DNA of 64,000 bases from contig NZ_CP126161.1 in the NCBI RefSeq assembly GCF_030127105.1, positions 1,984,001 through 2,048,000 on the forward strand, written 5' to 3'. The DNA comes from Haloarcula pelagica. Lineage in GTDB: Archaea; Halobacteriota; Halobacteria; Halobacteriales; Haloarculaceae. This document shows positions 26,880-53,253 of this stretch, one piece after another (position 1 is the stretch's first letter; each line of letters opens with the position of its first letter). Position numbers and translations under genes: made by a program. A model generated the notes under the pieces. That model was not told the origin of the DNA and searched no databases. It saw only the letters and a program-made list of their open reading frames with translations.

Positions 26880-28004
26880 TCAGGGCGGGTCGCCCAGTTC
26901 GCCGTGGGTCGACAGCGCCTCCTCGATGGCCGCCCGTTCCTCCCGAGCGGCCGCCAGATCACGCTCGACGGCGCCGCTCGCGACCCGCTCGCGCTCCTCG
27001 TCGGTGAGTTCCGAGCGAGCCAGCGCGCTCTCGCGGAGTCGCTCGTACTCCTCGCGGCGGGCCAGCGCCCGGACCTCGCGCAGTCGGGCGACGACCGACT
27101 CGTCGGCGAACCCGGCGACGACGGAGCGGTACTCCCCGCACAGCCACGGGAGTTCCGCGGCCGGGGGCGGCGGCCAGCCGACGGTGAGCGGCTCGGCGTC
27201 GATGTCCCGGAGGTAGGTTCGCCGGGTCGCGACGGCCGAGCGCAGCGCCGCCGGATCCTCGACGTAGTGGTCCAGTTTCGACCCGGAGTAGTCGGCGTAC
27301 TCCAGTAGCGTCGGCAGCGGCTCGGTCCCGGCCTCGTGGTCGTGGACGTAGGTCAGCAGCTCCGCGGGCGGCGAGCGGAACTCGACCAGGGGGAAGGCGC
27401 CGGCCCGTTCGATCAGGTCGAGGAGGTCCCGCGCCGACGCGTCGCCCCGGAACGCCCCGAACGCCTCGCGGACGGCCTCGTCGTACGCGTCGATGGGCTC
27501 CCGGAGCCGTTCGACCGGCGCGTCCAGATCGGCGTCGCCCAGCCGTTCGAGCCGTTCCAGCTCCGCGACCCGGTCGTCCAGCGTTCCGATTCGCCGCCGG
27601 GCGTCCCGCCGGGCCTGAACGTACGCTTCCCGGGCCGCTTCCAGGTCGTCCAGTCGGCCGACGAGATCGGCCACCGGCGCCAGCATCTCCCGGGCCCGCT
27701 CGAAGTCGCTCTCCGAGAGCCGGCGCTGCTGGAGGTGGTCGTCGACGGCCTCGAAGGTGTCGTACTCGGGCACGTCCTCGTCGAGGTTCCCCACCACGGT
27801 CGCCACGGCCCCCTCGAACTGGGTGTAGGCCTGGAAGTCCCCGCTCCCGGTCGCCCGACCGTCGTAGTCGTCGAGCAGGCGCGTCAGCTCCCGGTAGGCG
27901 TCCCGGCAGGTCCGGAGCCGGTCGGCGCCGACTTCCTCGACTCGCTCCCGTGCCTGCTCGCGCTCGCGTTCGGCCTGCTCCAGGCGGTCGACGGCGTCGG
28001 ACAT
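26880..28004 (-). CDS. Coiled-coil protein (DUF7118-like), unknown function
   Basis: 374 aa, highly charged, no TM. Heptad-rich helices span about 1-50 (VDRLEQAEREREQARERVEEV), 100-160 (LEAAREAYVQARRDARRRIGTLDDRVAELERLERL) and 320-365. A conserved-looking central block contains FRSPPAELLTYVHDHEAGTE and WPPPPAAELPWLCGEYRSVV. Its ATG overlaps the hisI stop (TGATG), so it is translationally coupled to histidine biosynthesis. That coupling may be incidental. Confidence 0.78.
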   Translation of the reverse strand: MSDAVDRLEQAEREREQARERVEEVGADRLRTCRDAYRELTRLLDDYDGRATGSGDFQAYTQFEGAVATVVGNLDEDVPEYDTFEAVDDHLQQRRLSESDFERAREMLAPVADLVGRLDDLEAAREAYVQARRDARRRIGTLDDRVAELERLERLGDADLDAPVERLREPIDAYDEAVREAFGAFRGDASARDLLDLIERAGAFPLVEFRSPPAELLTYVHDHEAGTEPLPTLLEYADYSGSKLDHYVEDPAALRSAVATRRTYLRDIDAEPLTVGWPPPPAAELPWLCGEYRSVVAGFADESVVARLREVRALARREEYERLRESALARSELTDEERERVASGAVERDLAAAREERAAIEEALSTHGELGDPP

Positions 28005-28366
28005 CAGTAGACTTCGTCCGGGTCGAACACCTGTTGGCCGACCTCCTCGCCGTCGACGGTCCGGTAGAAACAGGACTCGTAGCCCGTGTGACAGGCCCCG
28101 CCAGCCTGGTCGACGACGTACAGCACCGCGTCGCCGTCACAGTCGACACGGACCTCCTCGATCGCCTGGGTGTGGCCGCTCGTCCCCCCCTTCTTCCAGA
28201 GTTCGTCGCGGCTGCGCGAGTAGTAGTGCGCGTAGCCCGTCTCCCGGGTCCGGTCGAGCGCTTCCTCGGTGACGTACGCGAGCATGAGGACCTCGCCCGT
28301 CTCGGCGTCCTGGGCGACCGCCGGGAGGTACTCCTGCTCGTCGAACGCGAGGTCGACGGCTGTCAT
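28004..28366 (-). CDS. hisI: Phosphoribosyl-AMP cyclohydrolase
   Basis: 120 aa zinc enzyme of histidine biosynthesis opening the adenine ring of PR-AMP. Substrate and metal motifs: [29 protein letters not shown], the Mg-site [11 protein letters not shown], and the zinc cysteines in [14 protein letters not shown]. Start [20 protein letters not shown] is typical; upstream in-frame sequence is not conserved. First gene of a two-gene unit with the coiled-coil protein. Confidence 0.96.
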
Positions 28367-28766
28367 ACTCTGGCGGAAGCCTGTCTGCAAGATAGGTCTT
28401 GTGTCACACGCGAGGCACACGGTTCCCGTCGCCGCCAACCGCCCTGGTCGTCGATTCCGTCGGGGCCGACTGCCGACTCGTCGAGTGGTCCGGACCGGCC
28501 TCGGGACGACGAACGCACTTGTATCGGCATGACCGACCGGGAACGTGATATTATATCTTTAATTCACTCCCACAATACCTGGACACATCTTATGTACCAC
28601 GGTGGGAACGTCGATGTATGAGACGAGATAGCACTGCCACGGACCGCATCGATGCGCGACTCGCTCCCGTCGGCGGATCGGCCGCCGGGGATTCTCCCCC
28701 GAAGTGGCCGAACCCGACCCCCGCTCCAGGCACCGCCCGCCAGCCACGCCAGTTCACCACGCACCA
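28367..28766. other. 400-nt gene-free divergent region upstream of the agmatinase-family gene
   Basis: No convincing gene. It holds the hisI promoter at the left and an unusually AT-rich stretch at about 28546-28596 (GTGATATTATATCTTTAATT and following), roughly 170-220 nt before the ATG at 28767. If that is the promoter, the transcript has a leader of about 170-190 nt, long for a haloarchaeon. A 30-codon open frame starts at 28529 but has no support. An arm pair CCCAC/GTGGG brackets the AT-rich part. Confidence 0.5.
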
Positions 28767-29750
28767 ATGACGAACGACATCACGGAACCGACGAGCCGCC
28801 TCCCCGAGACCGCGTTCGCCGGTATCCAGACGTTCCTCGGCGCCGATGTCGTCGACCCCGAGGGGCTCCCAGCCGACGCCCGGGTCGGCGCTGTCGGCGT
28901 CCCGTTTGACGGCTCCGTCTCCCGGCGGCCCGGCACCCGATACGGCCCCAGGGCGCTCCGCGCGGCCAGCGAGTGGATCGCGCAGTTCGGCGACGAGAAC
29001 GGGCGGGCCTACAACGCCGACACCGGCCGCCACGTCGACCAGCGCGCCCTCGGCGTCTACGACTGCGGGGACGCCCCGGTCGCCCCCAACGACGCCGAGC
29101 GGACACGGGATCAGGTCGCCGCCTACGTGGGCGCTGTCGCCGAACGCGCCTTTCCGCTCGTCCTCGGGGGCGACCACTACATCACGTATCCGGCCTTCGC
29201 CGGCTACGCCGGGAGCGTCGAGGGCGACGTTGGGCTCGTCCACCTCGACGCGCACTCGGACACGGCCGACGACGGAGACCTGTACGGAAAACACTGGCAC
29301 GGCTCGCCGATGGCGCGGATCGACGACCTCGAACAGGGCGGCTACGAGAACCACGCGATGATCGGGATTCGGGCCTACGAGCGGTCCGGGTTCCCCGACC
29401 TCGTCGAGTCGAACGGGATTCAGGTCAACTACGCCCGCGACGTTCGCGAGAAGGGGATCGAGACGTGTGTCGAGGAGGCCATCGAGCACGCGACCGACGG
29501 GACCGACCACGTCTACCTGACGGTCGACATCGACGCCGTCGATCCGTCGTTCGCCCCCGGGACGGGGACCCCGGAACCGGGCGGGCTCACCAGCGCTCAA
29601 CTGCTGGCCGCGATGGATCGGTTGGGCCGGTGTCGGGATATCGGTGCGATGGACCTCATGGAGGTCGCGCCCCGACTCGATCCGACCGACTCGACCCAGA
29701 TGCTCGCGGTCATGGCCGTCGCACGCTTTCTCGAACGGCGCTTCCCGTGA
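28767..29750 (+). CDS. speB: Agmatinase-family (ureohydrolase) enzyme
   Basis: 327 aa arginase/agmatinase fold with a binuclear Mn site. Metal motifs: GGDHYITYP (about residue 136), HLDAHSDTADD (about 158-168) and DIDAVDPSFAPGTGTPEPGG (about 253-272). The N-terminal GVPFDGSVSRRPGTRYGPRALR is also conserved. Agmatinase gives putrescine and urea, but related archaeal enzymes act on other guanidino compounds. The next gene starts inside its stop codon. TiaS, an agmatine user, is in the same window. Confidence 0.9.
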   Translation: MTNDITEPTSRLPETAFAGIQTFLGADVVDPEGLPADARVGAVGVPFDGSVSRRPGTRYGPRALRAASEWIAQFGDENGRAYNADTGRHVDQRALGVYDCGDAPVAPNDAERTRDQVAAYVGAVAERAFPLVLGGDHYITYPAFAGYAGSVEGDVGLVHLDAHSDTADDGDLYGKHWHGSPMARIDDLEQGGYENHAMIGIRAYERSGFPDLVESNGIQVNYARDVREKGIETCVEEAIEHATDGTDHVYLTVDIDAVDPSFAPGTGTPEPGGLTSAQLLAAMDRLGRCRDIGAMDLMEVAPRLDPTDSTQMLAVMAVARFLERRFP

Positions 29751-30415
29751 CGGATCGACCCGACACGGACGACCCGATCACCGAGATCCGCCCGGACGTG
29801 TACGACCTCACGCTGACCCGCGACCCGGCCAGATACCGGGCGTTCCTGTTCGATTGGGACCGGCCGACGCTCGTCGACTGCGGCCCGGCAGCGAACGCGG
29901 GGACGCTCCTCGACCGCATCGAGACCCTCGATATCGTGCCCGAACGGGTGGTGCTCACCCACGCCGACCACGACCACGTCGGGGGGTTCGACGCGGTCGT
30001 CGACAGCTACGACCCGACGACGTGGGTTCCCCAGGAGTCGACGCTGTCGACGGAGCACTCTCCCGACCACCGCTACGACCACGAGACGACGGTCGGGCCG
30101 TTCACTGCCGTCCACGTTCCCGGGCACACTGCCGACAACTACGCGCTGGTCGCGTCCGACCACGACCTCGTCGTGATGGGTGACGCGATGATCGGCGCCG
30201 ACTGGCGTGGGCTACCCGCGGGGTACTTCCTTCTGGTCGAGGCCGTCTACTCCGACGATCTCGCGACGGCCGAACGGAACCTCGAACGCCTCCAGACCTA
30301 CGAGTTCGATGCCGGACTGGTGTTTCACGGCTCCTCGGTCTTCACGGACGCGAGACGGAAACTCGACCGGTTTCTGGAGTTCCCGAACAAGGGTACCTGG
30401 AGCGATCCCGACTGA
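29747..30415 (+). CDS. MBL-fold metallo-hydrolase
   Basis: 222 aa from a GTG overlapping the upstream TGA (GTGA), so coupled to the agmatinase-family gene. Metal-binding motifs: THADHDHVGG (about residues 67-76), VPGHTADNYALV (about 125) and MGDAMIG (about 145). This is the glyoxalase II-like group of the superfamily; the substrate is unknown. Co-translation suggests that it acts on a product or by-product of the guanidino hydrolase (inference). Confidence 0.85.
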   Translation: MTDRPDTDDPITEIRPDVYDLTLTRDPARYRAFLFDWDRPTLVDCGPAANAGTLLDRIETLDIVPERVVLTHADHDHVGGFDAVVDSYDPTTWVPQESTLSTEHSPDHRYDHETTVGPFTAVHVPGHTADNYALVASDHDLVVMGDAMIGADWRGLPAGYFLLVEAVYSDDLATAERNLERLQTYEFDAGLVFHGSSVFTDARRKLDRFLEFPNKGTWSDPD

Positions 30416-30551
30416 CCCCGAGTCGGCGGTGTGACACGAGTCGGCGAGTTCTCGAAGCGAACCGGTCGGCTGCGGCGACGGACCGCCTCCCAGGTTTGAA
30501 TCGCCTGGAGACTCGCTGACGCTCGCCTTCCGAGCCTCCGCTCGCGGAGGC

Positions 30552-30598
30552 GGGGACAGCCCGAGCTTCCGGTCGAGTACTCTTCCAGTCTGGGCTAC
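30552..30598 (-). pseudogene. Degenerate tRNA-Phe fragment (D-arm and anticodon arm)
   Basis: Matches 34690-34735 of the intact tRNA-Phe at 39 of 46 aligned positions with a 1-nt insertion in the anticodon loop. The T-arm and acceptor stem are missing; they are replaced by a hairpin GCCTCCGC/GCGGAGGC. The stop codon TAG of the adjacent gene (30595-30597) lies inside it. It marks the far end of the three-gene island opposite the intact tRNA-Phe. Confidence 0.7.
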
Positions 30599-31878
30599 CG
30601 GGGCTCACCCCGTTGGTCCGGACGGAGGGGCTGGGAACAGACGGGGCTGGTGGTCGTTTGCGGTTCGATACCCCGATCGACGCGGAGGAACTCCGAGATC
30701 GCGTAGACCATCCAGGCCTGACACCACCGCATCAGCGTCGTCCGCTTCGTGTGGTACCGGTGTTTCCGGTGGTAGAACCGGCCGTCACCCCCGTAGAGGT
30801 TATCGAGGGTCCATTCGAGGATCCGACGCGCGAAGTCGAGCCGTCCGGCGTAAGTGAACACCAGGATCCCCTGGGCGCTGGCGTGGATGTCTCGGGGGTA
30901 CGAACAGGATTCGTCCCAGTTCGGCGCTCCAGACGCCTCGAACAGTTCGTTCCGATAGAACTCGACTCCGTCCTCGACCACGTCCGCATAGCGTTCGTCG
31001 ACGACATCCCCGTACCGCTGGAGACTCTCGATGATGAACCCGTTGTGGAAATTGTCCATCGAGAGGTGAGACGCATCGGGCGGCTCGCGGTAGTACCAGC
31101 CACCGCGATCCGTCTGGAGGTCGGCGACGTGGTCGAAGATTCGCCGTGCCCGCTCGCGCAGGGCCGACTCGTCGAAGACATCGTACAGATCGACGAGGAG
31201 GCGTGCACCGAGCGCGCCGGCGTTGATGGTGTAGTACTCATCGGTGTCCTGGACGTGGTAGTCGATGACTGCACCGCCGTCGACCGCTCGATAGTTCAGG
31301 TCGTCGACGACGAAGTCCGCGGCCGTCCGGGCGACCTCGGCGTAGGACGGATCCAGCGGGGCCGCTGCGAGGAGCGCCCGCACCGGAAAGGCGGTCGATA
31401 CCACCGACGGATGGTTCGGGAGCCCCTTGACCCTGAGCGTCTGAATCTCGTGTTTGTGACCGCCACAGAACCCGCTGTAACCGACGCTCCGGTGTTCGAT
31501 CAGCCAGTCGACGAGGGATCTCGCCTCCCCGACGTGATCGACACTCGCTTCTGCCGGTTCGTCGACCGCCCCGGCCGTGAGGAGACGGGCGTACGTCAGG
31601 TTGGCCATCGCGAAGAGCGCCGCTCCCATGTAATTCCGGCGCTGTTCGACTAGGAACAGTGGCCGCACGTTCACCGGGGCTCGCTTTATGCTCTCCTGTA
31701 CGGCGATGTTCACCCACTTGTTGTCCACGGGGACGGCCCGGAGGAGCTTACTACTCAGTCCGTCGGCGTAATCCCACCCGGTGTAGTCGCGCTCCCGTGC
31801 GTACGCGAGCGTCTCCCGGAGGAGCGTCGGAGCGCGTGTGGTCGACAGATCGACCGGGCCCGTCTGTTCGGTGGTCAT
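30595..31878 (-). CDS. Six-hairpin glycosidase-like protein
   Basis: 427 aa, no TM or signal peptide. The pattern of repeated helix pairs (AARTAADFVVDDLNYR, LRERARRIFDHVADLQ, DVVEDGVEFYRNELF, DFARRILEWTLDNLYG) and aromatic loops (TDRGGWYYREPPDASHLSMDNFHNGFIIESL, WCQAWMVYAISEFL) resembles alpha/alpha six-hairpin glycosidases or polysaccharide lyase-related proteins. Catalytic residues cannot be assigned. ATG overlaps the ATP-grasp stop by 4 nt. Third gene of the island operon; probably acts on an intracellular glycan or glycoconjugate. Confidence 0.7.
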   Translation of the reverse strand: MTTEQTGPVDLSTTRAPTLLRETLAYARERDYTGWDYADGLSSKLLRAVPVDNKWVNIAVQESIKRAPVNVRPLFLVEQRRNYMGAALFAMANLTYARLLTAGAVDEPAEASVDHVGEARSLVDWLIEHRSVGYSGFCGGHKHEIQTLRVKGLPNHPSVVSTAFPVRALLAAAPLDPSYAEVARTAADFVVDDLNYRAVDGGAVIDYHVQDTDEYYTINAGALGARLLVDLYDVFDESALRERARRIFDHVADLQTDRGGWYYREPPDASHLSMDNFHNGFIIESLQRYGDVVDERYADVVEDGVEFYRNELFEASGAPNWDESCSYPRDIHASAQGILVFTYAGRLDFARRILEWTLDNLYGGDGRFYHRKHRYHTKRTTLMRWCQAWMVYAISEFLRVDRGIEPQTTTSPVCSQPLRPDQRGEPR

Positions 31879-33143
31879 CGATCTCCGTTCGCCACCGTCT
31901 CCCGGTCGATGTCGGGATCGTCTGCGTCGACCGTGAGGTTCTCCTCCGAACCGCCCTGGGCCGAGCGTGTGTCTGCGTCCGAGCCGCGAACGGGTGGCTC
32001 TGCGTCCGCTTCCGCGTCTCCCGATGGGGGTGTGAACCACGATATCGGGTCCCGGAAGTTGAGGTCGATCCGAGCCGGCGGGTACGCCATCGCGACGATG
32101 GATCGCAGCAGTGACTCGCTCTCGTGGCTGTACGAGAAGTAGAGTTCGCGTAACGGGAACACCATCTCGCCGACCTGTGCGGGTTGGCACGTGGACGGCT
32201 CCCACGGCAGATCGAGGAGCTCGGATACGATCGAGGAGACGAACCGGTAGCCAGACTGACTCGCGAGCGCGTACGATGCCCAGAGCTTCGGGTTCACCTC
32301 CATCAGGACGAACGAGCCGTCGGGGCGACGCTTGAACTCGACTAGGGCGGGACCGTTCCAGTCGAGCCCGTCCAACAGCGCGATGGTCGCAGCTTCGAGG
32401 GCCGGGTGGCGGTAGATGCGGACCCGCGTCCCGCTCCCGCCCGCTCGGGGAACGGAGCGAAGTTCCTCGTGCTCGAACAGCATCTTGAGGTCGCCGTCGC
32501 AGTAGAGGACGCCACAGCCGAACGTCCGAGGGTCGTCGATGAACTCCTGAACGAGGATATCGTCGGTTGCTTCCTCAGCCAGGTCCTCGTACGTCGACCA
32601 GAACGCCGCCGGCTCGTCGACTTTCGCCGTCATGGTCTCTCCGCATTCGTGGCGGGCTTTCAGGAACACCGGGAACGGAAGCTGATCGATGCTGCCGGGT
32701 CGACCCTGTTCGTCCAGCGTCGTGACCTGGGTCGTGTAGTCGTCGGGCGTGTCGATACCGCAGTCGTCGGCGAGCGAGAGTGTCGCACGCTTGTCGACCG
32801 CGGTCGATAACGGCTCCGTCGGAGGGAGGCAACAGCGGATCGAACCTGGGAGTCGGTCCCGTAGCCCGTCGAGTGTCACGACCGATTGATAGCCGACCGG
32901 CAGGACGACATCCGGTTCGTGTGACCAGATGATCTCGAGCAGCTCCTCGCCGTACCCGTCCGCCTCGGGATCTGCCGTGACGCCGATATCGCAGTACTTC
33001 GAGCGGAGCAGTCGGCTGTTCCCGGCCGACCCGATGCCGACGATCGTCGCGTCCAGGTCCTCGGAGAGTTCGGTCGCGACCTGGATGGCGTTGTCGTAGT
33101 CTCCGTCGAGGACTATCACCCGCGGGGGTCTCTGGTCACTCAT
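31875..33143 (-). CDS. ATP-grasp ligase-like protein
   Basis: 422 aa. N-terminal pre-ATP-grasp Rossmann-like domain (VIVLDGDYDNAIQVATELSEDL), ATP-grasp core from about 115: the lysine strand FPVFLKARHECGETMTAKV, the ILVQEFIDD hinge, and the metal-binding VEFKRRPDGSFVLMEVNPKLWAS (about 300). An acidic, Asp/Glu-rich 70-residue tail follows. Resembles carbamoyl-phosphate-synthase-like and D-alanine ligase-like ATP-grasp proteins that join a carboxylate to an amine. Starts 5 nt after the GNAT gene, so it is in the same operon. Confidence 0.82.
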   Translation of the reverse strand: MSDQRPPRVIVLDGDYDNAIQVATELSEDLDATIVGIGSAGNSRLLRSKYCDIGVTADPEADGYGEELLEIIWSHEPDVVLPVGYQSVVTLDGLRDRLPGSIRCCLPPTEPLSTAVDKRATLSLADDCGIDTPDDYTTQVTTLDEQGRPGSIDQLPFPVFLKARHECGETMTAKVDEPAAFWSTYEDLAEEATDDILVQEFIDDPRTFGCGVLYCDGDLKMLFEHEELRSVPRAGGSGTRVRIYRHPALEAATIALLDGLDWNGPALVEFKRRPDGSFVLMEVNPKLWASYALASQSGYRFVSSIVSELLDLPWEPSTCQPAQVGEMVFPLRELYFSYSHESESLLRSIVAMAYPPARIDLNFRDPISWFTPPSGDAEADAEPPVRGSDADTRSAQGGSEENLTVDADDPDIDRETVANGDR

Positions 33144-33148
33144 GTCGT

Positions 33149-34258
33149 TCAGTCCCTGTCCTGTTCGGTGAACGTCGTTCGCCAGTTCGACCCGTCAGCG
33201 AGCTCGCCGACAGGGAGTCGATCGGCCTCAGAATCGCTCGTGAGCGGACGTACCGCCATCTCGGTTGGCGTCCGGAACCGGGAGACGATCGGGGCTTCGT
33301 CGGGGACGAATCCGAACCGCGAGAGGAGCGGAGACGGGAGCGTCGATCCGGAGACGGCCAGGACGCTCGCGTCGGCGTTGTCGGAGACGATAGTCGCGAT
33401 CAGTCGTCCGAATGCCGGTTCGCCCGGACCCGCCGGGAGTGCATCCATGAGTTTGACTTTCCGTCCGTTCCTCGTGCGGGTGACGATGGCGGCGACGGGC
33501 TCGCCATCGCGTGAGGCGACGTACGTCGTGTCCTCGTAGGCGGGGTCGGCGAACCACCAGCGATAGAAGGCGCTGTCTCGCTGGACGTGGAACCGTCGAG
33601 GTGGGGCGGTTTCGTAGAGGGTTTCCAGCGTCTCCGCCGGCACCGTCTCGTAGCGGTCGACCTCGACGGAGTCGTCACTGGACGACCGACGGGCCCCGAC
33701 GACACCCAGCGCCCCGCGTGCGATCGCGTTCATCGTCCGGCCGAGTGTCCGCCTCCCTACCCCCGCGTCTCCCGGGGTGAGGAGTTCGGCGGGGCGCTGG
33801 ACCCGGTAGTGGGTCACGACGCGGTCGAGGGCCGACCAGCCGAGGTCACGCTGGACCGACAGGGCGCCGGGGTTCGGGAAGTTGAAGAAGAACGCCGGCT
33901 CGCCGTCTTCGTACCGATCGATGGCGCTCCGGGTGATCCGTGTGTACAGTCCCTTTCGGCGGTGGTCGGGGTGGACCATCGCGTCGGCCGGCTGAAGCGC
34001 GAGGACTGACCGGTCACCTCGGCGTATCCGGGCTGGGACGTACGCCTGGGTGCCGACGATCTCGCCGCCGTGAGTAGCGACGTTGATCGGAACGTGCGAG
34101 AGGAACGGATCGTCGACGTACTTCCAGTCGAACCAGTCGGGGGTGGGGCGTCTGTCCCACTCGGTCTCGTACAGCGAGAGTATCCCGTGGCGGTCGTCCC
34201 GTTGGAACCACCGAACCTCGTACTCGTCAGAACCCTCTTTTTGTTCTTTGACGCCCAT
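33149..34258 (-). CDS. GNAT family N-acetyltransferase-like protein (two-domain)
   Basis: 369 aa from ATG at 34258; a GTG one codon earlier is possible. The N-terminal GNAT domain has the acetyl-CoA loop MVHPDHRRKGLYTRITRSAI (about residues 92-111) preceded by VGTQAYVPARIRRGDRSVLAL. The C-terminal half (about 190-330) looks like a second, degenerate GNAT domain (DTTYVASRDGEPVAAIVTRTRNG...). Similar proteins occur in polysaccharide clusters. First gene of the island operon; a TATA-like GTATAAC lies about 30 nt upstream. Confidence 0.82.
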   Translation of the reverse strand: MGVKEQKEGSDEYEVRWFQRDDRHGILSLYETEWDRRPTPDWFDWKYVDDPFLSHVPINVATHGGEIVGTQAYVPARIRRGDRSVLALQPADAMVHPDHRRKGLYTRITRSAIDRYEDGEPAFFFNFPNPGALSVQRDLGWSALDRVVTHYRVQRPAELLTPGDAGVGRRTLGRTMNAIARGALGVVGARRSSSDDSVEVDRYETVPAETLETLYETAPPRRFHVQRDSAFYRWWFADPAYEDTTYVASRDGEPVAAIVTRTRNGRKVKLMDALPAGPGEPAFGRLIATIVSDNADASVLAVSGSTLPSPLLSRFGFVPDEAPIVSRFRTPTEMAVRPLTSDSEADRLPVGELADGSNWRTTFTEQDRD

Positions 34259-34600
34259 CACTGGACTACATCTTCTATTCGTCCATTTGTTATACGCGCT
34301 GTATCGGGGATTAGAGCACTCCTAACTCTCGTTTCTGTACGGGAGTCCACACCAAGTCGGATGTGTTGCCCTCGAGGGTGCCGTTATCGCGTGACCGACG
34401 ACAGCCCCCGCGCTTCCGACCTAGGCCGTCGATACTCCAACTCACACACGTTCTTGCGGTCACTCCGATCGCACCAATTGGGACAATACACCGGCCACAC
34501 TGTCGTGCGAGCGGGTGTGCAGTGATCTCCTGCTAAGCGGGACCACCACCGATCGACTCGCTTCGCTCGTCTTTCGACTTCCCGCTCGTTTCGCTCCGGG
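34259..34600. other. Gene-free, relatively AT-rich island edge with the GNAT promoter
   Basis: No gene supported. A minus-strand TATA-like element (GTATAAC, about 34289-34295) lies upstream of the GNAT start. The next 200 nt are less GC-rich than the surrounding chromosome and contain no recognisable repeats. The right end (34556-34600) has weak hairpins of the CTCGTTTCGCT type before the tRNA-Phe fragment. Confidence 0.5.
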
Positions 34601-34630
34601 AACGGGGACAGGTCGACCTTCAGTCGAGTA
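34601..34630 (-). pseudogene. Degenerate tRNA-Phe anticodon-arm fragment
   Basis: This 30-nt piece differs from the anticodon arm and T-stem start of the intact tRNA-Phe (68 nt away) by about three changes and keeps the GAA anticodon sequence. It lies 3' of the tRNA gene in transcript direction. It may be an old attachment-site duplication. Confidence 0.6.
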
Positions 34631-34667
34631 CGTAACGCTCTCGAATGCGGATCGCGTAGAATCGGGA

Positions 34668-34741
34668 TGCCGCCTCCCGGATTTGAACCGGGGACAGCTC
34701 GATCTTCAGTCGAGTGCTCTCCCAGTCTGAGCTAAGGCGGC
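34668..34741 (-). tRNA. tRNA-Phe (GAA anticodon)
   Basis: 74 nt, acceptor GCCGCCT/AGGCGGC, discriminator A. D-arm TAGCTCAGACTGGGAGAGC, anticodon stem CTCGA/TCGAG around loop CTGAAGA giving GAA (34705-34707), T-arm CCCCGGTTCAAATCCGGG. It is the right border of the island at 30552-34668. Confidence 0.96.
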
Positions 34742-35039: not shown

Positions 35040-35240
35040 TCACGAGTCGTTCGCGGAATGGGTCCGGGCGTCCTGCGCGAGAGCGCAGGGCTCGGGAGAG
35101 CGTCGCTCTCCCGGTGGATTCGAACCGGAGGAAGACGGACCGCTCGCTTCGCTCGCGGTTGCGACTTCCAGGGTTCGAACCGCCCGAGAGAGCGATTCAC
35201 CGCTCACGAGTCGTTCGCGGAGAATCTATGGGTCCGGGCG
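35040..35240. repeat. tRNA-Val-derived direct repeats and T-arm debris
   Basis: TCACGAGTCGTTCGCGGA plus ATGGGTCCGGGCG occurs at 35040-35070 and again at 35204-35240, where a 6-nt insert separates the two parts and the second part is the real 3' end of tRNA-Val. Between the copies are two T-arm-like pieces (GGTGGATTCGAACCGG at about 35113, GGGTTCGAACCGCCC at about 35171) and hairpins at 35072-35089, 35094-35112 and 35139-35159. No gene is seen in 34920-35228. Confidence 0.7.
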
Positions 35241-35302
35241 GATTCGAACCACCGACCTCGGCCTTGTAAAGGCCACGTCATAACCAACTAGACCACGGAC
35301 CC
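35229..35302 (-). tRNA. tRNA-Val (TAC anticodon)
   Basis: 74 nt, acceptor GGGTCCG/CGGACCC, discriminator A. D-arm TGGTCTAGTTGGTTATGAC, anticodon loop TTTACAA giving TAC, T-arm GGTGGTTCGAATCCGCC. Its 3' end is duplicated 170 nt downstream. Confidence 0.95.
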
Positions 35303-52999: not shown

Positions 53000-53120
53000 G
53001 CTGAGACCTCGGTGCCGTGTGCGGAGGGAGTAGTTAGTACTCGAGAGTCGTCCAGGGGAAACACGGGTGGCGCGCGGTTCGAATCAGATTACGAGAGTTC
53101 GCTGCGCGCGACTGGCAGAG

Positions 53121-53139
53121 TTCAAATCCCTCGCTGCCG
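53121..53139 (+). repeat. Inverted copy of the tRNA-Arg(CCG) 3' end
   Basis: TTCAAATCCCTCGCTGCCG on the plus strand is the inverse of the 3' region of tRNA-Arg at 53181-53202 on the minus strand; 14 nt (TTCAAATCCCTCGC) match exactly. The nearby CGCGCGGTTCGAATC (about 53071-53085) is another T-arm-like piece. Region 53000-53180 holds no gene. Confidence 0.6.
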
Positions 53140-53180
53140 GTTCACTCACTGCCTCGCTGTCGCTCGGCAGTTTCGTTGCA

Positions 53181-53253
53181 CGGGCGGCGAGGGATTTGAA
53201 CCCCCGACCATCTGGTCCGGAACCAGGCGTTCTGTCCGCTGAACTAGCCGCCC
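53181..53253 (-). tRNA. tRNA-Arg (CCG anticodon)
   Basis: 73 nt, acceptor GGGCGGC/GCCGCCC, discriminator G. D-arm TAGTTCAGCGGACAGAACG, anticodon loop TTCCGGA giving CCG (53218-53220) with a C-A mismatch at the first stem pair, T-arm CGGGGGTTCAAATCCCTCG. The second tRNA-Arg in the window. Confidence 0.93.

Follow-up and report, generated by a model that had tools for sequence, protein, structure and literature searches.

The occurrence of two broken copies of tRNA-Phe around a three-gene operon raises the question of whether these pieces are duplicated attachment (att) sites, left by an element that integrated at the tRNA gene, or have another origin. We analyzed this locus in a window of 64,000 nt from Haloarcula pelagica, which corresponds to positions 1984001–2048000 of contig C1 (NZ_CP126161.1) in a 4.46-Mb genome, here called G000; relatives are coded G0xx and their loci L0xx. 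The earlier note on this DNA had read the pieces as the footprint of a three-gene island. It is fairly probable that the locus consists of a foreign segment beside tRNA-Phe and that the pieces are decayed members of a family of small cassettes, each closed by a copy of the tRNA tail. The genus comparison comprised 31 relatives, of which G014 is the closest examined, and cassette counts are based on tRNA flanks and model searches.

Both pieces are real and have the same orientation as the intact tRNA-Phe (GAA), which ARAGORN and Rfam place at 34668–34741 on the minus strand, and the operon indeed lies between them. In a tile comparison the tile at 30471 scored 31 against a window background of 9.1 (mean; sd 1.8), with the next tile reaching 17, and chance matches were rejected on this ground. 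The limits proposed before were too narrow in both cases. For piece 1, placed at 30552–30598, the match itself is genuine (gapped alignment at 30551–30604, same orientation, 44 of 54 columns), but the piece extends over 30482–30604 on the minus strand and includes the tRNA 3’ end at 30483–30503 (86% match). It represents a near full-length decayed copy with a GC-rich hairpin of about 47 nt inserted into its T arm, and it extends into the 3’ end of the last operon gene. Piece 2, placed at 34601–34630, does contain a copy of the anticodon arm (34603–34629, same orientation, 93%), but this copy is part of a longer module with GC-rich hairpins at 34540–34667, minus strand. Parts of this stretch also stand behind tRNA-Phe in three relatives (G026, G001, G015), all of which are without the operon, so the stretch was not created by the operon’s arrival. 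Anticodon arm, variable loop and hairpins are present in both pieces, and piece 1 additionally contains T arm and tail; neither is detected by ARAGORN and Rfam scans of the window. A unit behind tRNA-Phe in Natronolimnohabitans follows the same plan as the pieces, with a perfect 27-nt copy of the anticodon arm and a complete tail. As judged from these alignments, both pieces most likely represent tRNA-Phe cassettes that are old and decayed, and not att sites of the operon. A second tRNA-Phe-like match in the genome, at C1:2403832, was rejected as a remnant; it is a separate tRNA gene, called as Tyr, that almost every member of the genus possesses.

Across relatives the sequence behind tRNA-Phe consists of repeated modules, each ending in the tRNA tail. 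The units are about 90–160 nt long, contain two hairpins and no gene, and are non-coding in appearance. Read on the tRNA strand, hairpin A is followed by an inverted T arm, hairpin B and a direct T arm with acceptor tail. Among haloarchaeal loci with a tRNA-Phe core, 35 of 73 have the tail copied in direct orientation no more than 300 nt away, at a score of at least 13, where the largest shuffled score was 13.0. To count such copies in G000, the last 20 nt of each of 43 Rfam-listed tRNA genes were searched within 600 nt of the gene, allowing up to 3 edits. The gene’s own tail was found again downstream of thirteen of the 43 genes and upstream of none; in a swap control, tails of other tRNAs matched in 27 of 1802 pairs. 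One genome of another haloarchaeal family showed own-tail copies at 16 of the 30 tRNAs tested, with up to four in a row. A covariance model of the cassette core found 16 full-length sense matches in G000, 14 of them directly behind a tRNA, including one tRNA-Gln called by ARAGORN. Of the other two, one lies past an element of about 21 kb at its parent tRNA, and one carries the tail of a tRNA 33.5 kb away. In the phylum sample, matches at E ≤ 1e-4 were obtained in 30 of 197 genomes, all of this order, with search filters that lose weak matches. Two tail copies in a non-halophile of the same phylum (G404), the only case there, were rejected as cassettes, since they come from two neighboring copies of one tRNA. 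The tRNA-Gln (CTG) with a cassette at C1:1881740–1881806 (L293) is missing from the Rfam-based set of 43, so that this tRNA count is slightly low.

Within the window a cassette region stands behind tRNA-Val (TAC), a gene at 35229–35302 on the minus strand according to the tRNA scan. It covers 35059–35228 on the same strand with hairpin A, inverted T arm, hairpin B, direct T arm and an interrupted tail copy, and the core model matches at 35116–35182. Behind tRNA-Arg (53181–53253), the stretch 53060–53180 combines a hairpin with a copy of the tRNA-Arg 3’ end in inverted orientation (score 16.8), and is likely another cassette. At gathering score Rfam 15 finds six tRNAs in the window and nothing else, and no Rfam 15 family above that score falls in the cassette regions. 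No integrase was seen beside the window’s arrays. A description of haloarchaeal tRNA-tail cassettes was not found in the open-access literature, subscription papers lying outside that search, and this widespread haloarchaeal family is apparently undescribed.

Comparison between species suggests that the units turn over. Arrays at tRNA-Val in the genus are made of tandem units, mostly 100–125 nt long, each closed by a copy of the tRNA-Val tail that is often exact, and the unit types and their order differ between species. When hairpin types were paired by fuzzy matching, A1 occurred with b1, b2 and b3, A2 with b1 and b2, A3 with b1 and b3, and A4 with b2, b3 and b4. The clearest case is found at tRNA-Phe. 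In G031 the tRNA tail is followed directly by TCCTGATTTTGTATC, and in G003 a 15.7-kb element is followed by a tail and TCCCGATTTTGTATC. In G005 a 15.8-kb element and a tail are followed by a 144-nt unit, which itself ends in a tail, and then by TCCTGATTTTGTATC. By this alignment G031 and G003 lack exactly the 144-nt unit that G005 carries at the tail. The second hairpin of this unit shares 96.6% identity over 58 nt with a hairpin behind tRNA-Val of the window, while its T arms fit tRNA-Phe; likewise, the cassette bodies of Val-TAC and Val-CAC share 82% over 85 nt. The unit that is absent or present, together with the shared bodies, argues that cassettes are inserted at the tRNA tail and move between tRNA genes.

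The same arrays could have arisen without any recombinase if the tail underwent slippage, gene conversion and local duplication in tandem, with reassortment by ordinary homologous recombination between similar arrays. Tail copies frequently match the adjacent tRNA exactly, tandem repeats do occur in G014 and G073, and short repeats generally favor unequal exchange. However, adjacent units of one array often differ in their bodies, related hairpins reappear at other tRNAs with a switched tail, and the G005 unit is cleanly missing from G031 and G003. We regard local duplication as a rather unlikely source of the cassettes.

A strict loop motif, PyGA-RC-GNA-GY-GAPu, is present in 32 of 73 units, with inner pairs of A..T (19) or G..C (19) and one mixed case. 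GNA loops combined with GA/GA pairs give very stable mini-hairpins in DNA. A consensus fold of 39 mixed cassettes was dropped because hairpin B aligned too poorly, and 14 similar cores were used instead. Their alignment has 94.6% of its cells paired and a covariation score of 0.240, compared to 0.136 for shuffled and at most 0.067 for slid alignments, for 14 sequences from which the structure itself was drawn. Covariation thus supports the core structure without proving it. Folded as single-stranded DNA, two units gave z-values of -4.9 and -3.8 and a third -0.4.

These features might also be expected of functional RNAs or terminators that are transcribed by read-through from the tRNA promoter, with tRNA 3’ processing cleaving at each tail copy, similar to the tyrT repeats and rtT RNA of E. 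coli. The fixed position and strand behind tRNAs, the conserved two-hairpin design and the paired changes in the core are in line with such a role. We nevertheless consider it improbable, since no cassette was detected at most tRNAs, and species differ in the presence, type and order of the units; moreover, selection on a palindrome at the DNA level would yield identical paired changes.

We then return to the operon and its neighborhood. When the tRNA-Phe locus was compared in 29 relatives, similarity to the window ended at the tRNA 3’ end, or in a few within about 80 nt of it. Beyond a weak match to the GNAT gene in G008 and G010, no shared sequence was found near the tRNA on that side within 18 kb, and rearranged loci of the G075 type (e.g. 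L075, L082) contain a small number of blocks that match other parts of the window. Three relatives (G003, G005, G010) carry insertions of 15.4–15.8 kb that end in a copy of the tRNA-Phe 3’ end, with a gene for a 415-aa tyrosine recombinase adjoining. The same recombinase (90–99.8% identical) is present near tRNA-Phe in G019 and G021, where no tail copy was found, and G020 has a different recombinase (348 aa) with a tRNA-Phe tail copy at 8.0 kb. GNAT genes about 36% identical to the one in the window lie 0.4 kb from tRNA-Phe in G008 (L076, 16776–17891) and just past the element in G010 (L073, 832–1941; both in oriented coordinates), so this type of cargo recurs at the site. On these comparisons tRNA-Phe is to be regarded as a true integration hot spot.

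G014 is collinear with the window at about 87% on both sides of a segment that has been exchanged between the two genomes. The segment extends from 28411 to 34666 and measures 6.3 kb here; G014 contains 18.9 kb of other DNA in its place. It includes the operon proposed as the island, but is larger and reaches past piece 1 with two further genes on the left. As to the empty site that the note proposed to look for in related strains, the segment is absent from G014, where other DNA occupies the place. Relatives besides G014 were unusable for this purpose, with hisI, the left flank, far from tRNA-Phe or on another contig. The operon’s ATP-grasp gene has no orthologue in the 31 genus relatives (best about 31% identity), and its best match overall, 58% identical, comes from another family. 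Composition, for which the note had proposed a tetranucleotide test, is mildly deviant: the 4-mer distance lies at the 97.8th percentile, the GC content of the operon block is 0.646 (about the 5th percentile), and 34259–34600 was correctly described as GC-poor, with 0.579 (about the 1st percentile). Gene comparison indicates that the operon is foreign at this locus. No integrase is found among the segment genes, in agreement with the earlier note, and the nearest PF00589 match among the genome-wide matches listed is at C1:1966301. At 28.4–28.7 kb, the far end of the segment, there is no copy of a tRNA tail. Of the features expected of a mobile element, the segment shows absence from the same place in G014 and one boundary at a tRNA site; an integrase gene and a direct att tail copy at the far end are missing. 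Piece 1 sits between the operon and the left block of two genes, suggesting that accretion took place at least twice.

Integration at the tRNA gene thus stands as far as a foreign operon at a hot spot is concerned, given the replacement in G014 and the recombinase elements of relatives, but the pieces do not appear to be its footprint. That they are att duplications of a three-gene island, with an integrase core perhaps in the anticodon arm and an enzyme lost or acting in trans, agrees with the hot spot, with their shared orientation, tight bracketing of the operon and common anticodon arm with following hairpins, and with archaeal att sites that may include the anticodon loop or 5’ half (PMC8371274), but is quite improbable since the copies are degenerate and carry the 5’ half or the anticodon arm, whereas far att copies at tRNA-Phe in relatives comprise the last ~15–24 nt, and since the piece 2 stretch partly occurs without the operon, no integrase was found, the exchanged segment does not stop at piece 1, and the pieces fit a cassette family found behind many tRNAs with or without an island.

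For the preferred reading, decayed cassettes beside a foreign segment, we propose that the 6.3-kb segment accumulated at the 3’ flank of tRNA-Phe, probably as two or more blocks, and that its integrase and clean att copy were either lost or never present. The operon, as a foreign block, would have ended up between the pieces, an interpretation that one close strain could overturn. A cassette inserted at the tRNA 3’ end would keep the gene intact and offer a new tail copy, so that arrays can grow; a site-specific recombinase acting in trans may move the cassettes, and the hairpins may act as folded single strands. Taken further, this would amount to an integron-like but geneless system in which a recombinase inserts, loses and moves hairpin cassettes among haloarchaeal tRNAs, perhaps via the folded single strand. 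We put this forward tentatively, as a possibility with less than even chances.

Several observations weigh against these proposals. No moving enzyme has been identified and no excised cassette form was seen, and the exact comparison of absence and presence at the sequence level is one case. Viral contigs and phages were without cassettes, and plasmids gave only a 25-nt match, in a narrow search with one strict pattern and two queries. Single-strand DNA folds of pieces 1 and 2 are no better than shuffled, the core covariance model scores both weakly, and they are too decayed to establish cassette membership alone. If the cassette reading is true, an archaeal order has non-coding cassette arrays behind its tRNAs that represent a small mobile or regulatory system, and these tail-closed arrays turn over between species, invisible to gene-centered annotation. 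A broken tRNA piece near a haloarchaeal tRNA gene may then represent a cassette and does not prove an island. The reading lends itself to direct tests, since the point of insertion is exact and cultivable species have different cassette contents.

Some known systems resemble the cassettes. The 178-bp tandem repeats at E. coli tyrT (rtT RNA) resemble the cassettes in that every unit includes the 3’ end of the adjacent tRNA, but they are found at one locus, whereas cassettes stand behind many tRNAs of an order with differing bodies within an array. In integrons, arrays are made of units with imperfect palindromic ends and of varying content and order. Cassette arrays likewise consist of palindromic tandem units that vary in content and order; unlike integrons, they consist of geneless units, use the tRNA tail as site and have no dedicated integrase that could be found beside them. 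In Methanopyrus kandleri about half of the tRNA genes are followed by a palindromic motif that was reported as specific to that species (PMC5217627). Like the cassettes it is a palindrome downstream of many archaeal tRNA genes, but it is single and short, without tail copy or array (PMC5217627). In Haloquadratum walsbyi an imperfect 57-nt copy of tRNA-Thr1 with 5 mismatches, 6.7 kb downstream of the gene, was read as an element remnant (PMC3119063). That locus shares with the window a partial tRNA copy with no integrase nearby (PMC3119063), but the copy in the window is nearly full length and contains a T-arm hairpin, and similar modules stand behind many tRNAs. Archaeal tRNA-integrated elements with tyrosine recombinases use the tRNA 3’ end as site and have a far partial copy and foreign cargo (PMC8371274). 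Their features are present in relatives and elsewhere in the own genome; the segment in the window, however, has no integrase and no clean att copy, and the cassettes, of ~100–160 nt, are geneless.

Such an element in G000 is an insertion of about 20.7 kb that extends leftwards from the tRNA 3’ end at C1:1967619 to about C1:1946.8–1947.1 kb (L101, L102) and is absent from G014. Its far end carries a perfect 44-nt tRNA copy, and the recombinase gene at C1:1966301 (428-aa frame) adjoins the tRNA. A cassette lies past the far copy; in G014, without the element, it stands directly behind the tRNA, so the insertion has displaced the cassette to its far end. By its sequence features this element can serve as a model of recent integration in this genome, unlike the island in the window, which lacks an integrase and a clean att copy. 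A cassette at C1:2614245–2614311 (L292) has the tail of a tRNA at C1:2647901, 33.5 kb away, together with extra tail copies; a large element may lie between the two.

The genes of the operon are all on the minus strand and comprise a GNAT-family acetyltransferase (33149–34261, PF13527), an ATP-grasp protein (31875–33143, weak PF02786, PRK12767-like below cut-off) and a six-hairpin-type protein, so named in the earlier note (30595–31878). The last has no Pfam or NCBIfam match, while its homologues are common in the order (114 of 392 genomes), with copies of 59–60% identity elsewhere in G013 and G018. The order GNAT, ATP-grasp, six-hairpin recurs in G069, G040 and G080, all of one other family, with the GNAT gene seen only in part in two of them; in G040 the operon’s neighbors encode a recombinase-like and methylase-like proteins, as assigned by reading of the sequences. 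On the plus strand, the left block contains an arginase/agmatinase-family gene (28704–29750, PF00491), with orthologues of 70–74% in G008 and G024 only, and a gene for a protein with metallo-beta-lactamase fold (29747–30415, PF00753). The conserved left flank includes hisI, encoding phosphoribosyl-AMP cyclohydrolase (28004–28438, minus strand, PF01502), which is found genus-wide. G000 and G014 are the only genomes in which it adjoins tRNA-Phe; in other relatives with both genes on one contig they are mostly about 140–190 kb or more apart, which points to a rearrangement breakpoint near the hot spot. Three more six-hairpin homologues of 56–58% identity are encoded in G000 at C1:638691, C2:306969 and C2:406121, two of them near an ATP-grasp homologue.

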